Notes under the pieces: model-generated
What the model was told of the DNA's origin: nothing
What the model saw: only the letters and a program-made list of their open reading frames with translations
Database searches by the model: none
Source of the DNA: a virus
DNA: 64,000 nucleotides
IMG/VR virus record: IMGVR_UViG_3300025889_000002
Location: 1 to 64,000 of that record
Strand: one strand, 5' to 3'
Shown: positions 1 to 42,196 of the stretch, piece by piece
Position numbering within the stretch: the stretch's first letter is position 1
Layout: every line of letters begins with the position of its first letter
Made by a program: the position numbers and the translations under genes

Positions 1-432
1 GAAACTCTCAGTATTGGGTCAAATATTGATCTTGAGTGGGATATCCTACACGAGTTCTTCGAAGCACTCCCCACGCAAGGGCTTAACCGCTTCATCGGCC
101 ACTATATCAGCGGCTTCGATCTTCGCTTTATCCTGAACCGCGCTATCGTCCTTGGCGTCCAGTTGCCGCCTAGCGTCATGTTCCCTCGCGAAATTAAGCC
201 GTGGTCGGATAACGTGTTCGACACCATGGTCGCATGGGCAGGACCGAAAGACCGGATCAGCCTCGACAATCTTTGCAAGGCCCTCGGCATTCCCGGCAAG
301 GATGGCTTCGACGGCTCGATGGTGGCTGAAGCATGGGCGAACGGTGAGCATGAACGTATAGCCGCTTATTGCAAAAGCGACATAGAGAGGGTAAGGGCTG
401 TTTACAGAAAATTTCAAGCGGTTGGCTACTAA
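1..432 (+). CDS. 3'-5' exonuclease, RNase H fold, 5' end outside window
   Basis: C-terminal 143 residues of a PolB/DnaQ-type 3'-5' exonuclease. The complete counterpart at 40116-40781 supplies the missing N-terminus with the Exo I motif. Visible here are Exo II (HYISGFD) and the C-terminal Exo III region, which reads YCKSDIERV. It probably trims DNA for recombination, since Erf and SSB follow. The first 116 bases are identical to 40351-40466 of the second copy. The stop overlaps the ATG of the following HNH gene by one base. Confidence 0.85.
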   Translation, partial: ETLSIGSNIDLEWDILHEFFEALPTQGLNRFIGHYISGFDLRFILNRAIVLGVQLPPSVMFPREIKPWSDNVFDTMVAWAGPKDRISLDNLCKALGIPGKDGFDGSMVAEAWANGEHERIAAYCKSDIERVRAVYRKFQAVGY

Positions 433-977
433 TGGAAATCTGGAAAACAATTCCTGAATTTGAGGGCCTTTATGAGGCAAGTAATTTTGGCAACATCCGC
501 AGCCTAGACCGCTGGCATGAGGGAGTTTTTGGAAGATCTAAAAAGGTTATGCGAAAGCGTTGGCCGGGAAGGCCGATCCAGCCCTATGTCAACAAGGAGC
601 GTGGTGGTTATCGTTACGTAAACCTGCACAAAGAGAAGTCGCAGCATATGAGGCGAGTTGCCCGAATGGTGGCTTCGGCTTTTTTGGGGCCGTGTCCAGA
701 AGGGAAAGTGGTTTGCCACAACAATGGCATTCCCCACGATGATCGCCTTGAGAACTTGAGATACGATACCCCTAAGGCCAATAACGCGGACCAGATAAAG
801 CACGGGACTGCCATTTTGGGCGAGCGCAGTCCTAATTGCAAAATTAGCGACAATGACGTTCGCTTTATCCGTCGCAGCAAGCTTTCCCCTAGGATTTTGG
901 CAGAGCGTTTTGGCGTTCATCCCAACCACATAACCAACATCCGGTGTCGCCTTAAGCGCGCCAGAGTGGAGGATTAA
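432..977 (+). CDS. NUMOD4/HNH homing endonuclease
   Basis: 182 residues. The N-terminus reads WKTIPEFEGLYEASNFGNIRS, the NUMOD4 pattern of phage homing endonucleases. The middle has an HNH-like stretch (VVCHNNGIPHDDRLENL), and the C-terminus has a small helix-turn-helix (LAERFGVHPNHITNI) for target binding. Start chosen at 432, overlapping the exonuclease stop. In unit B the exonuclease and Erf genes are separated by one base, so this is a clean insertion here. It is probably a selfish free-standing endonuclease rather than a needed phage function. Confidence 0.85.
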   Translation: MEIWKTIPEFEGLYEASNFGNIRSLDRWHEGVFGRSKKVMRKRWPGRPIQPYVNKERGGYRYVNLHKEKSQHMRRVARMVASAFLGPCPEGKVVCHNNGIPHDDRLENLRYDTPKANNADQIKHGTAILGERSPNCKISDNDVRFIRRSKLSPRILAERFGVHPNHITNIRCRLKRARVED

Positions 978-979
978 TC

Positions 980-1564
980 ATGAGCAAAGCAATCATCACC
1001 GCGCTGGCGAAGGTTCTGCCTACGCTTGAGAATGCCAAGAAGAACGCGGCCAACCCGCACTTCAAAAGCAAGTATGCCAACCTATCGGCAGTCATGGAGG
1101 CTGTCGAGCCGATCAAGGCGCACGGTCTCTGGTATCGCCAGCAATCCCACGACAAGCCCGATGGAGCATGTATCGAAACCATCTACATGCACGAAAGCGG
1201 CGAGGAAATGAGCGCGGGCCTGACGTTCGTGAAGGCGGACAAGCAAAACGCGCAGGGCTTTGGATCCGCAATGACCTATGCGCGGCGCTATAGCCTGCAA
1301 ACGGCGTTCGGTCTGGATGCCGAGGATGATGATGGAAACGCTGCTAGCGCACCGAAGCAACATCCTGCACCCAAGGTCGAAACAATCACCGACGCCCAGC
1401 GCGAAGAACTCATGCTGCTGTGTGAGAGCCTCAATTTCCCAGTTGACCGGGTTCTTACAGCGAAAAAGATAGCAGACCTTAGCGATTTGCCCGCGACAAG
1501 TTTTAAAGGGGCAATGAAATGGATTGGCGACGAGGCCAAGAAGATGGAGAATAATAATGCTTAG
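980..1564 (+). CDS. erf: Erf-family single-strand annealing protein
   Basis: 194 residues. The conserved ERF core is clear: [20 protein letters not shown] near the N-terminus and [19 protein letters not shown] near residue 100. The C-terminal ~70 residues form a variable tail. Erf proteins anneal complementary single strands in phage recombination or genome circularisation, working with an exonuclease and SSB, which flank it here. The last codons overlap the ssb start, implying translational coupling. Confidence 0.93.
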   Translation: MSKAIITALAKVLPTLENAKKNAANPHFKSKYANLSAVMEAVEPIKAHGLWYRQQSHDKPDGACIETIYMHESGEEMSAGLTFVKADKQNAQGFGSAMTYARRYSLQTAFGLDAEDDDGNAASAPKQHPAPKVETITDAQREELMLLCESLNFPVDRVLTAKKIADLSDLPATSFKGAMKWIGDEAKKMENNNA

Positions 1565-1946
1565 AACATTCGCAGCGGGCCGACTTGGCCAAGACGCAAA
1601 GCACACCACAACGCAAAGCGGCACGGATATTTGCCGTTTCTCGCTCGCCACCGATGTAGGGTATGGTGAAAACAAGCAAACCATCTGGTTGGACGTTTCC
1701 AAGTTCGGCAAGGGCGCTGAAGGTCTGGCGCGCATCCTGCGCAAAGGTTCGGCTGTTGCCGTCACTGGCGAACTCTCAACGCGGGAATACGAAGGCAAGA
1801 CGTATCTACAATGCAAAGCTGACGACGTTACGATCCTGAACACTCCCGGCGATGGACGCGGTGAGCGCAAGCAATCGTATGACAGCGGCAATCAAGGTGG
1901 TGGCTGGGGCAATGACGGCCAGGACGACGGATACGCACCTTTCTAG
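1557..1946 (+). CDS. ssb: single-stranded DNA-binding protein
   Basis: 129 residues with an OB fold (TDICRFSLATDVGY, IWLDVSKFGKGAE, KGSAVAVTGEL), then a Gly/Gln/Asn-rich linker. It ends DDGYAPF, an acidic tip with terminal Pro-Phe like that used by bacterial SSBs to bind partners. It protects single strands for Erf/NinB recombination and replication. The start overlaps the end of erf. A structured RNA element follows the stop immediately. Confidence 0.9.
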   Translation: MLRTFAAGRLGQDAKHTTTQSGTDICRFSLATDVGYGENKQTIWLDVSKFGKGAEGLARILRKGSAVAVTGELSTREYEGKTYLQCKADDVTILNTPGDGRGERKQSYDSGNQGGGWGNDGQDDGYAPF

Positions 1947-1954
1947 TTACGGTC

Positions 1955-2020
1955 AGGCAATATCGAATACGGTTGCCTAGTGGAAGCTACGCGTCGGGCC
2001 GTAGCCGTGAAAAGCCCGAC
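1955..2020 (+). ncRNA. hairpin plus H-type pseudoknot RNA after ssb (copy A)
   Basis: Hairpin: AGGCAA 1955-1960 with TTGCCT 1973-1978. Pseudoknot stem 1: GCTACG 1986-1991 with CGTAGC 2000-2005. Stem 2: GTCGGGC 1993-1999 with GCCCGAC 2014-2020. Loop 1 is one base, there is no base between the stems, and loop 3 is eight bases, a normal H-type geometry. Unit B (41771-41834) keeps both stems with compensatory changes. A Shine-Dalgarno (AAGGAG, 2031-2036) lies 10 bases downstream, so it could act on translation of the next gene, or be an ssb 3' UTR element. Confidence 0.75.
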
Positions 2021-2043
2021 AATTTCAACCAAGGAGAATGACG

Positions 2044-2334
2044 ATGTTTATACCCGATAAAGCTAATGATGTTGAACTTGCTGACGGCAGCTGGCTGGCT
2101 GCAACTCAGATATTCGAGATGCAAAACGACACTGGGCCTGAATGTTGCGGCACACTAGGCTTTGCAATGGGGACTGCCATGGCCTTGGGAAATATCGCCG
2201 CAGCCTATGTGACGGGTGCCACCCCTAAACAGAAGAAAGACTTTCTGAAAATAATCCAGCGCACGGTTAAAGACTCATTCGACGAACCCATTACCACGGC
2301 GACCATCCGTGGTGTGGATGGTGTAACTCACTAA
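2044..2334 (+). CDS. hypothetical protein after the pseudoknot element
   Basis: 96 residues, family not recognised. The middle is Gly/Ala-rich (LGFAMGTAMALGNIAAAYVTG) and may be a short amphipathic or membrane-associated helix. An ATG at 2038 sits only one base from the AAGGAG site, so the ATG at 2044 (seven-base spacing) is preferred. Unit B lacks this gene: a HNH-type protein follows the RNA element there. It overlaps the next gene by one base. Confidence 0.6.
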   Translation: MFIPDKANDVELADGSWLAATQIFEMQNDTGPECCGTLGFAMGTAMALGNIAAAYVTGATPKQKKDFLKIIQRTVKDSFDEPITTATIRGVDGVTH

Positions 2335-2654
2335 TGCCCAAGGTCAATCACAACCGCATACGCCAGAAGTACAGCGCCAAGCCTACGGAGCGTGAACGTC
2401 AGTATCACCGCTGGTGCATCGATAACTTCCCATGCGCGTGCGGTTGTGGCTGTCCTTCAGAGATTGCGCACCACGTTCTCTCATCCATGCCGGAAAAGCG
2501 GTGGCGGCGCGATCATGAAGTGGTTGTTCCGCTCACTGCCGCCCACCATTTTGACCTGCACCTTGGCAATGCCCGCAAGATCGAGGCGGAATGGGGTGTG
2601 CCAGAGCGCGCGGTGGAACTGCGCAAGCGAGCTTACGAGTGCTATGTGTTATGA
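2334..2654 (+). CDS. HNH/DUF968-like recombination nuclease
   Basis: 106 residues with a compact Cys/His cluster (CACGCGC, then EIAHHVLSS) and a second His-rich segment (AAHHFDLHLGN). This is the pattern of small phage ββα-metal nucleases of the DUF968 or recombination-nuclease type. It sits directly upstream of ninB with a four-base ATGA overlap. The unit B gene in the same slot (41855-42196) is a different sequence with the same logic. Role in recombination is inferred. Confidence 0.6.
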   Translation: MPKVNHNRIRQKYSAKPTERERQYHRWCIDNFPCACGCGCPSEIAHHVLSSMPEKRWRRDHEVVVPLTAAHHFDLHLGNARKIEAEWGVPERAVELRKRAYECYVL

Positions 2655-3040
2655 GCCGCACGATATTCCTGATCGGAGAAAGTCAGCGCGACTATGCCAA
2701 GCGGTCAATTGATGAAGCCCCTGCGGACTATGTGTGCAAGATTGCCAAGGCTACCAGGAGCGACCGTCAGAACCGGAAAATGTGGGCGATGATTAAGGAC
2801 ATGTGCCAGCAGATCGAGGGCATGAACCGTTTTACCGCCGATCAAGTCAAGCTGCAATTCCTGAACGCTTTAGGCGTGGAAATGACTTTCCTGCCAGAGC
2901 TGGATGGGCAAGGTATGTTCCCGGTCGGGATGCGCAGTTCCACACTAACCAAAGAGCAATTTGCCGGACTGATAACGCTTATGCTCGCATACGGCGACAA
3001 GCATGAGGTTCGGTGGAGTAAAGAAAGTTTAGAGCCATGA
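2651..3040 (+). CDS. ninB: NinB-family recombination protein
   Basis: 129 residues. Matches the NinB/Orf pattern: an N-terminal strand (TIFLIGE), a basic DRQNRKMWAMIKDM segment near residue 40, and a C-terminal motif RSSTLTKEQFAGLI. NinB proteins bind single-stranded DNA and help load recombinases in lambda-type phages. It overlaps both neighbours by four bases, consistent with one operon with erf and ssb. Confidence 0.88.
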   Translation: MSRTIFLIGESQRDYAKRSIDEAPADYVCKIAKATRSDRQNRKMWAMIKDMCQQIEGMNRFTADQVKLQFLNALGVEMTFLPELDGQGMFPVGMRSSTLTKEQFAGLITLMLAYGDKHEVRWSKESLEP

Positions 3041-3948: not shown

Positions 3949-4667
3949 TGCTTGCCATCGATTTTGCAGAGCCAGAGCCATCGGAAGACTTTGCCGAATA
4001 TCGCGACACCATGCGCCGCAGTAGCCAAATGTATCTAACCGCGATCCAGACCGCCAAGGGGACACATTGGCTTTGCGGCCATCATCGCGGGCCGGATAAC
4101 ACGCACACCATTGCCGGAAAGACACAATGCAAAAAGTGCCGACGCGATAAAATCAACAGTGCGCTGAAGGTGATTGCGCAGCGTCAAGCTGTAGAGCGCG
4201 CCCTTGCTGTTCATGCTGCCGAGATGGAAGATCGGCGCATTGAGAGGCGTAAAGGCGAAAAGCAGCGCGAGGCCGAACGCTACAGGCGCGAGCGAGAGGA
4301 GAAGCGCCGGTTGCGCGATCAGGCCAACCGTAGAGCCAATGAAATACGTGCTTCTATTGTAGAGCGCACGATCATACACCCTGCGAATGGCCGCATTCCT
4401 TTGCATGATTTAATCCAGGCTGTTGCTACTGCGTTCGGCATTGACCCTGAGGGTGTGCGCAGCAAGGCGAGGGGGAAGAATTTCCTATATGCCCGATGCG
4501 TGCTTGTTAAAATCCTGCAAGAGCGGGGCGCGTCATATCCCGTCATTGGAAGGCTGCTAGGTGGCCGCGATCATAGCACCACGATCAACGCCTATCACAT
4601 GTTCCCGACATATTGCCGGAAAGACCCGCGTGTCGCCAGCACATACGAAAAGTATAAGGACCGCTAA
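3948..4667 (+). CDS. DnaA domain IV-type DNA-binding replication protein
   Basis: 239 residues in three parts. An N-terminal Cys/His knuckle (CGHHRGPDNTH, QCKKCRRDK, residues ~40-65) probably binds zinc. A highly charged coiled coil spans ~75-135. The C-terminus (~140-239) resembles DnaA domain IV, ending with GRLLGGRDHSTTINAYH, close to the DnaA box-recognition signature. There is no AAA+ domain, so it binds DNA but cannot unwind it itself. It may mark a phage origin or compete with host DnaA. Start set at 3948 because unit B offers only that ATG. Confidence 0.8.
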   Translation: MLAIDFAEPEPSEDFAEYRDTMRRSSQMYLTAIQTAKGTHWLCGHHRGPDNTHTIAGKTQCKKCRRDKINSALKVIAQRQAVERALAVHAAEMEDRRIERRKGEKQREAERYRREREEKRRLRDQANRRANEIRASIVERTIIHPANGRIPLHDLIQAVATAFGIDPEGVRSKARGKNFLYARCVLVKILQERGASYPVIGRLLGGRDHSTTINAYHMFPTYCRKDPRVASTYEKYKDR

Positions 4668-40115: not shown

Positions 40116-40781
40116 ATGAACGATATTTTTCTTGATTGCGAGACACTGCCAAGCCAATCGGCTGAATACCGCGCAGAGGTCCGCGACAGCATTACCGCCC
40201 CGGCACAATACAAGAAGCCGGAAAGCATTGCGCAGTGGATCGCAGACAACGGCGATGCGGCGGCTGACGAGATTGTAGCCAAGACTAGCTTTAATCCCGC
40301 GCACGGCCATATCTGCACGATTGGTTTTGCGATTGGTGATGAGCCAGTAGAAACTCTCAGTATTGGGTCAAATATTGATCTTGAGTGGGATATCCTACAC
40401 GAGTTCTTCGAAGCACTCCCCACGCAAGGGCTTAACCGCTTCATCGGCCACTATATCAGCGGCTTTGATCTGCGCTTTATCCTGAACCGCGCAATCGTGC
40501 TTGGCGTCCAATTGCCGCCTAGCGTCATGTTCCCCCGCGACATTAAGCCGTGGTCGGATAATGTGTTCGACACGATGGTAGCATGGGCGGGGCCGCGCGA
40601 TAAGATCAGCCTAGACGATCTGTGCAAGGCTCTCGGCATTCCCGGCAAGGATGGCTTTGACGGATCGATGGTGGCTGAAGCATGGGCGAACGGCGAGCAT
40701 GACAAGATCGCCAGCTATGCAAAGGATGATGTCGAGCGCGTGCGTTCGGTGTTCCGCAAGTTCGCAGAAGTGGGCTACTGA
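40116..40781 (+). CDS. 3'-5' exonuclease, RNase H fold (complete)
   Basis: 221 residues. Exo I IFLDCETLP (Asp7, Glu9), Exo II GHYISGFDLRF, Exo III YAKDDVERV. PolB-type proofreading-like nuclease without polymerase. Full version of the truncated gene at the window start. It likely provides single strands for Erf. Confidence 0.88.
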   Translation: MNDIFLDCETLPSQSAEYRAEVRDSITAPAQYKKPESIAQWIADNGDAAADEIVAKTSFNPAHGHICTIGFAIGDEPVETLSIGSNIDLEWDILHEFFEALPTQGLNRFIGHYISGFDLRFILNRAIVLGVQLPPSVMFPRDIKPWSDNVFDTMVAWAGPRDKISLDDLCKALGIPGKDGFDGSMVAEAWANGEHDKIASYAKDDVERVRSVFRKFAEVGY

Positions 40782-40782
40782 T

Positions 40783-41367
40783 ATGAGCAAAGCAATCATT
40801 ACCGCACTGGCGAAGGTTTTGCCGACGCTTGAGAACGCCAAGAAGAACGCGGCTAACCCGCACTTCAAAAGCAAGTATGCCAACCTGTCGGCGGTCATGG
40901 AAGCCGTCGAGCCGATCAAGGCACACGGTCTATGGTATCGCCAGCAGCCCCACGACAAGCCTGATGGTGCATGTATCGAAACCATATATCTGCACGAAAG
41001 CGGCGAGGAAATGAGCGCGGGTTTGACGTTCGTAAAGGCCGACAAGCAGAACGCACAGGGCTTTGGATCTGCAATGACCTATGCGCGGCGCTATAGCCTG
41101 CAAACGGCGTTCGGTCTGGATGCCGAGGATGACGATGGCAATGCGGCCTGCCCGCCCAAGCAACAGCCTGCACCCAAGGTCGAGACAATCACCGACGCCC
41201 AGCGCGAAGAACTCATGCTGCTGTGTGACCGGCTTAACGTCCCTGTTGACCGCTTCCTGAGCGTTGGCGGGGTCAAGGATTTAAGAGAAGTTCCCGCATC
41301 ACAGTTTGGACAAGCCAAGCAGTGGATCGAAGCGGAAGGCAAGAAACTGGAGAACAACAATGCTTAA
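40783..41367 (+). CDS. erf: Erf-family annealing protein (unit B)
   Basis: 194 residues, same core as 980-1564. The last ~50 residues differ ([19 protein letters not shown]), so the variable tail has been exchanged. Starts one base after the exonuclease stop; overlaps ssb. Confidence 0.93.
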
Positions 41368-41761
41368 TCGTGCAATGATCATTGGCCACCTTGGCGCTGA
41401 TCCTGAAATTCGCTCCTTCCAATCGGGAGGTAAGGTCGCAAACCTGCGCATTGCCACTACGGAAAAATGGAAAAAAGACGGCGAGCAGCAAGAGCGCACC
41501 GAATGGCACAGCGTTGCGATTATGAATGATGGGCTTGTCGGTGTGGTTGAACGCTTCCTGCGCAAAGGCAGTAAGGTCTACATTGAAGGCCAGCTTCAGA
41601 CGCGCAAGTGGCAGGACCAGTCTGGCAATGACCGCTACAGCACCGAGATTGTTTTACGCGGCTTCGGTGGATCGCTTGTGATGCTCGATGGCGCGCAAGG
41701 CCAGAGCAACAACGACAGCTACAATCAGGACGCTGGCGATAGCGGCGGCGGTTGGGGTTAA
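41360..41761 (+). CDS. ssb: single-stranded DNA-binding protein (unit B)
   Basis: 133 residues. [20 protein letters not shown] start and [20 protein letters not shown] give a canonical SSB OB fold, closer to bacterial SSB than the unit A protein. It ends SGGGWG without the acidic Asp...Phe tip, so partner binding may be lost. The structured RNA follows directly. Confidence 0.93.
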
Positions 41762-41770
41762 GTTACGGTC

Positions 41771-41834
41771 AGGCAATATCGAATACGGTTGCCTGAGGAA
41801 GCCACGCGGCGGGCCGTGGCCGTTAGAGCCCGCC
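41771..41834 (+). ncRNA. hairpin plus H-type pseudoknot RNA after ssb (copy B)
   Basis: Hairpin AGGCAA 41771-41776 with TTGCCT 41789-41794. Stem 1 GCCACG 41801-41806 with CGTGGC 41815-41820. Stem 2 GGCGGGC 41808-41814 with GCCCGCC 41828-41834. Relative to copy A, one pair in each pseudoknot stem changed on both sides (T-A to C-G, T-A to G-C). The loop-3 sequence and the genes on each side diverge. AGGAG follows ten bases later. Confidence 0.75.
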
Positions 41835-41854
41835 AATCAATTCAGGAGAAACAC

Positions 41855-42196
41855 ATGCTCCCCCGTAAAATCGCCAAGAAGGGAAACCGCACCGCGCGCT
41901 GGAAAAGCCAAGCCCATTGCACCTTCGTTCGTGGACATCATTGTTCCGTTCCAGGATGCGAGGAAATGCCTATCGAGGTGGCTCATGTCCGCTGCGGTTC
42001 GGATGCAGGAATGGGTCGCAAGCCGTCAGACTGGCACACGATAAGCCTTTGTCGCGAGCATCACTCCCAGCAGCACGCTATCGGGGAAGGTTCGTTCGAA
42101 GACCTGTATAGCATCGACATGTCCGAACTGGCAGAAGAGTTTGCCAAGGCCTCGCCCAAGTGGCGGGAGATACAAGAGGCGCGGCGCAATGGGTAG
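41855..42196 (+). CDS. HNH/DUF968-like recombination nuclease (unit B)
   Basis: 113 residues. CSVPGCEEMPIEVAHVRCGS with later TISLCREHHSQQHAIGEGSF gives the Cys-Cys-His-His set of a ββα-metal nuclease. Not a close relative of 2334-2654, yet it occupies the same position before ninB. Overlaps ninB by eight bases. Confidence 0.75.
   Translation: MLPRKIAKKGNRTARWKSQAHCTFVRGHHCSVPGCEEMPIEVAHVRCGSDAGMGRKPSDWHTISLCREHHSQQHAIGEGSFEDLYSIDMSELAEEFAKASPKWREIQEARRNG

Follow-up and report, generated by a model that had tools for sequence, protein, structure and literature searches.

A structured RNA element, built of a hairpin, an H-type pseudoknot and an outer helix, lies directly 3′ of the single-stranded DNA-binding protein gene (ssb) in a small set of phages. 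It was found in six distinct copies: two in the window (the whole 64,000 nt stretch analysed here, positions 1 to 64,000 of IMG/VR record IMGVR_UViG_3300025889_000002) and four (L086/L087, L088, L007 and L194) in other viral contigs. Judged from the sequences, it is probably a conserved structured RNA, a working RNA part kept by matching mutations despite swapped neighbour genes, and it apparently constitutes an undescribed phage RNA family, which looks rare. The sole constant partner of the element is ssb. As to its role, we tentatively propose, giving the idea somewhat less than even weight, that the family consists of cis-acting pseudoknotted RNAs which, in relatives of alphaproteobacterial phages, would bound the ssb cistron on its 3′ side and would protect or insulate it.

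The element in the two phage genomes of the window

The window belongs to an 80572 bp record which consists of two co-linear phage genomes of ~40.2–40.3 kb arranged head to tail (units 1 and 2), with blocks about 70–96% identical; the starts of both genomes (window 1–116 and 40350–40465) have exactly 116 nt in common, and no Phage_integrase match was found anywhere in the 80572 bp. The record is probably two distinct phages merged during assembly, not tandem prophages, and other assemblies of the same two phages were recovered (L003/L005 and L004/L085). The ssb gene of unit 1 (1557–1946, + strand, stop TAG at 1944–1946) encodes a 129 aa SSB (Pfam SSB, PF00436, E = 1.8e-17), that of unit 2 (41360–41761, + strand) a 133 aa SSB (Pfam SSB, E = 2.5e-31) without an acidic C-terminal tip, and the two proteins share 28% identity. 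The unit 2 protein ends in ...DSGGGWG; an acidic ...PF tip is present in 100 of the 143 SSBs compared, and unit 2 ssb may have lost it on joining to the RNA element. Related SSB and terminase genes suggest that the carriers infect Alphaproteobacteria or neighbouring groups. The closest named relatives by terminase, Mwe-JY13 (L143, 70%) and Pan3 (L144, 59%), are both recorded as cyanobacterial phages, the remaining close SSB matches belong mostly to phages of Alphaproteobacteria, and the recorded hosts of Mwe-JY13 and Pan3 are possibly worth checking.

The unit 1 copy occupies 1947–2020 on the + strand (cmsearch R2, 101.4 bits, the copy itself being in the model seed). Its first bases, TTACGG (1947–1952), adjoin the ssb stop codon and form the 5′ strand of the outer helix, P1. 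They are followed by the P2 hairpin (1955–1978), in which AGGCAA (1955–1960) pairs with TTGCCT (1973–1978) around a 12-nt loop, and by the pseudoknot, whose stem 1 (P3) joins GCTACG (1986–1991) to CGTAGC (2000–2005) and whose stem 2 (PK) joins GTCGGGC (1993–1999) to GCCCGAC (2014–2020). Loop 1 is the single nucleotide C1992, loop 2 has 0 nt and loop 3 (2006–2013, CGTGAAAA) has 8 nt. The Shine-Dalgarno sequence of the next gene (AAGGAG, 2031–2036, + strand) lies 10 nt after the pseudoknot, and that gene (start 2038 or 2044, + strand) encodes 98 aa with no Pfam match. The unit 2 copy (41763–41834, + strand) has the P1 5′ strand at 41763–41768 with one mismatch, P2 at 41771–41794, P3 at 41801–41806/41815–41820 (GCCACG/CGTGGC), PK at 41808–41814/41828–41834 (GGCGGGC/GCCCGCC) and a loop 3 of 7 nt (CGTTAGA); 9 nt beyond the pseudoknot end at 41834, the Shine-Dalgarno sequence AGGAG (41844–41848, + strand) precedes an HNH/DUF968 nuclease gene starting at 41855 (+ strand, Pfam HNHc_6 and DUF968).

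The original prediction of a hairpin and an H-type pseudoknot directly 3′ of the ssb stop in both units (1955–2020 and 41771–41834) is borne out by the sequence: the hairpin is identical between units, the loop lengths of 1, 0 and 7–8 can be read off directly, each stem holds one compensated pair (U-A to C-G in stem 1, U-A to G-C in stem 2), and the downstream genes, a 98 aa frame lacking a Pfam match and an HNH/DUF968 gene, are unrelated. The stems it described are real, but its limits were too narrow, the true 5′ edge lying 0–2 nt past the stop codon and P1 having been overlooked. Pattern searches returned two matches each in the window, against 0 or 0.04 expected from shuffles.

Comparative evidence for the fold and its outer helix

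The further copies were reached through ssb: L086/L087 and L088 via the closest SSB relatives of unit 1, L007 via relatives of the unit 2 SSB, and L194 through SSB relatives of L007. Four of the six copies are close and two, L007 and L194, are divergent; L007 matches the four-copy model over its full length at the correct site, weakly (12 bits), and both were counted as members by position and architecture. The evidence for the fold is comparative because the nested folding energy of a single sequence is unexceptional (z −0.29). Across P1, P2, P3 and PK of the four close copies 96% of cells are paired, with five double-changed pairs, two of them in P2 of L088; none of 500 shuffles reached as high a value, and sliding the partners by 1–3 columns left 20–41% paired. 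The 3′ strands of P3 and PK are likewise assigned by the covariation test. Once L007 and L194 are aligned by hand with these, standard pairs fill 154 of the 156 cells, the PK helix being kept in the divergent copies as GGCGGGCC/GGCCCGCC and GGCAGGC/GTCTGCC (a G-C pair becoming A-U in L194) and P3 as CACCC/GGGTG and CCCCG/CGGGG. For each of five copies tested, 0 of 1000 dinucleotide shuffles matched the strength of the pseudoknot. The wobble cells, seven in number, all read G-U on the + (ssb) strand and would be A-C mismatches on the opposite one, which points to an RNA read in the ssb direction. More homologues might have broken one of the stems; the four further distinct copies keep every helix.

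The two window copies alone cannot separate RNA from codon selection, because none of the three differences between units in P3 and the PK 5′ strand alters an amino acid in the frame GTG-GAA-GCT-ACG-CGT-CGG-GCC-GTA, which moreover continues into the next gene in L086, L088 and unit 2. The region might on these grounds be a short reading frame (VEATRRAVAV...) or a product of stop-codon readthrough, not an RNA. What separates the two explanations is the PK 3′ strand together with the further copies: a 1-nt deletion in unit 2 loop 3 shifts the frame with the pairing retained, the frame in which P2 lies differs between the units, and the frame meets a stop 2 codons after ssb in L007 and within loop 3 in L086 and L088, so that we regard a coding origin as extremely improbable.

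The outer helix P1 pairs the bases behind the stop codon with loop 3, in unit 1 joining 1947–1952 to 2005–2010, most of the latter strand being supplied by loop 3. It reads TTACGG/CCGTGA in unit 1, TTAACGG/CCGTTAA in L086 and L088, TTAACGCGG/CCGCGTTAA in L007 and CTGACGCGG/CCGCGTTAG in L194, and is a perfect 7–9 bp in the last four, with one pair broken in unit 2. The longest post-stop Watson-Crick match in non-member ssb flanks is usually 3–4 bp, and reaches at least 7 in 2 of 138. The strand that forms the P1 3′ side and loop 3, about CGTTA(A/G), is the only unpaired-region sequence alike across the six copies. Were P1 stacked on P3, 2–3 nt would have to span 11–15 bp to the pseudoknot junction, which is infeasible, so on this model P1 and the pseudoknot would compete as alternatives, or a sharp bend would be required. 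By energy estimates in which the pseudoknot energy proper is not included, the nested P1 form and the PK hairpin form come out similar in most copies; L194 clearly prefers P1, whereas unit 2 prefers the PK form.

Such competition could make the element a two-state switch read by the ribosome, with the strand ~CGTTARRA acting either as P1 partner or as crossing loop, the footprint of the ribosome terminating at ssb selecting between them, and ssb translation thereby coupled to what becomes of the recombination genes downstream. We consider a switch of this kind distinctly unlikely.

Neighbours, mosaic joints and distribution

Between the ssb stop and the first base of the element lie 0 nt in unit 1 and L088, 1 nt in unit 2, L086 and L194, and 2 nt in L007. 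From the pseudoknot end to the next start codon the distance is about 18–27 nt in five of the six copies and 54 nt in L194, yet the L194 copy lies 1 nt from its ssb stop, which ties the element to ssb and not to the next Shine-Dalgarno sequence; the closeness to the latter that had been pointed out earlier holds in unit 1 (10 nt) but is not general. The upstream recombinase is of the ERF type in both units, Rad52-type in L007 and without a Pfam match in L088. The directly downstream genes comprise an HNH gene, an RNA ligase gene (L007 4567–5106, PF09414, E = 8e-14), a reading frame that by eye looks similar to DUF2312 and two unknown genes, and a DUF968/HNH-type gene occurs within two genes downstream in at least five of the six copies, although the Pfam scores of those in unit 1 and L194 fall below the cutoff.

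Units 1 and 2 can be aligned through the ERF gene (980–1449, 91%) and then not at all through ssb, until a homology island (1945–2038/41761–41850, 85% identical) that begins within the stop codon of ssb and extends as far as the next Shine-Dalgarno region; the following block begins only from NinB at 2654. Further recombination joints fall close by: the homology of unit 1 with L086 runs to 2037 and that with L088 to 2021, and unit 2/L088 homology starts at 41765. L007/L010 homology ends at 4470, just ahead of the stop, and L007 has an ssb C-terminus nearly identical to those of L010 and L190 with abrupt divergence within 3 nt of the stop codon, which places the element and the stop codon exactly at a recombination joint.

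Breakpoints at the element edges (both sides between units 1 and 2, the right side in unit 1/L086 and unit 1/L088, the left side in L007/L010) would suit a homology linker, that is, a boundary sequence kept for recombinational exchange of ssb and downstream modules in which the structure is incidental. A linker needs identity, however, and what the divergent copies retain is the structure without the sequence, as double compensations and strand-polar G-U pairs show; we rate it as very unlikely.

The element is present in 6 of 143–144 distinct ssb 3′ flanks. A descriptor search of 143 such flanks scored true copies at 47–61 and the best other flank at 41, missing the unit 2 copy because of its one P1 mismatch. 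It is absent from about 137 of 143 ssb flanks of related phages, and is thus dispensable for ssb expression in general. Loci collected through NinB gave the same phages only, plus two without the element, a GTDB scan with the unit 1 SSB gave three gamma/beta-proteobacterial loci, all without it, and L006, L089, L139 and L143–L147 (SSB or NinB relatives, including Mwe-JY13 and Pan3) were also without it. A BLAST search with the element against phage and plasmid collections, a method insensitive to diverged RNA, gave nothing or chance fragments and so no member among cultured phages or plasmids, and covariance-model scans of Pseudomonadota genomes (about 860 distinct genomes and a partly overlapping class sample of 385), run with the stricter filters of that scale, gave no convincing copy, hence divergent copies were possibly missed. 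The first of four viral pattern scans returned only the same two phages, and the other three the known copies and chance matches without structure, several of them within reading frames. Of four weak model matches, L152, L153 and L176 overlap apparent coding regions in sense or antisense and have no pseudoknot, and L177 is unconvincing as judged from its alignment alone; a descriptor match (L035/L237) lies inside an HNH gene. Different strong hairpins, for example GCGCGGGC...GCCCGCGC, occur shortly after ssb in L091 (641–800) and L110 (4279–4420), suggesting that structured ssb 3′ ends are possibly commoner than the present family.

Relation to known RNAs and possible roles

At the gathering score Rfam 15 gave no match in the window, and a permissive E of up to 10 produced sub-threshold chance matches; the later Weinberg survey (224 candidate RNAs) was compared through Rfam only. 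With the fold kept in four further copies, the earlier impression that this is no named family stands. No intrinsic terminator (GC hairpin and U-run) was detected on the + strand in 900–3000, and with no U-run behind its stems the element is not an ordinary terminator.

SAM-II and preQ1 are H-type pseudoknot riboswitches, and the present H-type pseudoknot likewise stands shortly before a Shine-Dalgarno sequence in most copies. The P1/P2/P3 junction and pseudoknot resemble riboswitch architecture and, like the pseudoknot end about 18–27 nt ahead of the following start codon in five of the six copies, would accord with a metabolite riboswitch or ribozyme of unknown class that governs the recombination operon downstream. 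The element differs from SAM-II and preQ1, however, in having no sequestered Shine-Dalgarno sequence, no conserved unpaired core and no Rfam match to a riboswitch or ribozyme, and L194, at 54 nt from the next start, does not keep the position. Between the two subfamilies almost no unpaired base is conserved, with loops and joiners differing in the six-copy comparison, which makes a metabolite aptamer or ribozyme unlikely, and the genes to be controlled are unrelated. The ligand sensor first suggested is accordingly disfavoured, and we place it a little below even the linker.

STAXI (RF01728; Ssbp, Topoisomerase, Antirestriction, XerDC Integrase) is a pseudoknot candidate RNA near single-stranded DNA-binding protein genes, with 2–3 tandem pseudoknots and often UUCG tetraloops (PMC2864571). 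The present element is likewise a pseudoknot RNA near ssb, standing directly after it in six of six copies, but it consists of a single pseudoknot with the P2 hairpin and the outer P1. There is one model match per carrier record and no tandem repeat, except that the window record has its two copies 40 kb apart. Membership of STAXI was rejected, as tandem pseudoknots are absent and the STAXI covariance model matches none of seven carrier records at E ≤ 10; nor does STAXI occur in the permissive Rfam results. The L17 downstream element, a structured RNA directly after one gene, has been proposed as a 3′ UTR element for that gene (PMC2864571). The present RNA resembles it in standing directly 3′ of one gene; the L17 element differs in following a ribosomal protein gene in Lactobacillales and Listeria, and the present RNA has no Rfam match.

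The T4 gene 32 operator is a leader pseudoknot and, like the present element, a structured RNA that a phage carries next to its ssb gene. The gp32 proteins of T4 and RB69 act as repressors on structured targets in mRNA, and diverged targets can still serve for either protein (PMC535899), a precedent for an operator at which the phage SSB or a co-encoded recombinase would bind the pseudoknot and repress ssb or later genes. The constant link to ssb fits such an operator; against it, the gene 32 operators lie upstream, in the translation initiation region, and the present element 3′ of the ssb stop in six of six copies. We know of no sequence shared between them. RNAs 85% identical stand behind SSBs of 28% identity, and the upstream recombinases differ too, leaving the SSB-binding site of the original prediction possible but unsupported, and a protein-bound operator in general unlikely.

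The fold is compact, stable, self-contained and conserved independently of either neighbour, as would be expected of a trans-acting or independently processed phage RNA (an sRNA, sponge or decoy) cut from the ssb message. Against this, the element without exception adjoins an ssb stop codon, no promoter-like site was detected ahead of the element, and the viral, phage and plasmid collections searched held no independent copy; we think it rather improbable, as we do the ribosome-read switch. A trans-acting or protein-bound role would have the same appearance in sequence as the cis-acting one.

Of the roles first suggested, a stable 3′ RNA fits best, predicted here to act at the ssb 3′ boundary. 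In the boundary role that we favour, the compact, GC-rich pseudoknot would be a roadblock and boundary in a polycistronic recombination-gene message, shielding the abundant ssb message from 3′-to-5′ decay and keeping ssb translation and stability separate from the next, variable cistron. A ribosome finishing ssb at its stop codon would lie over the P1 5′ strand, so that the pseudoknot would be favoured while ssb is actively translated and the P1 form while it is not. We infer this decay and insulation role from position and stability alone.

A phage RNA family with a defined pseudoknotted fold thus outlasts the replacement of its flanking genes, even of its ssb, and joints of the phage genome mosaic are placed at the edges of a structured RNA. 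If ssb or the downstream nuclease and recombinase genes are controlled by it, the element would be one of few examples in which an RNA controls a bacterial-virus gene from its 3′ side, and would offer an accessible model for ribosome-gated folding.
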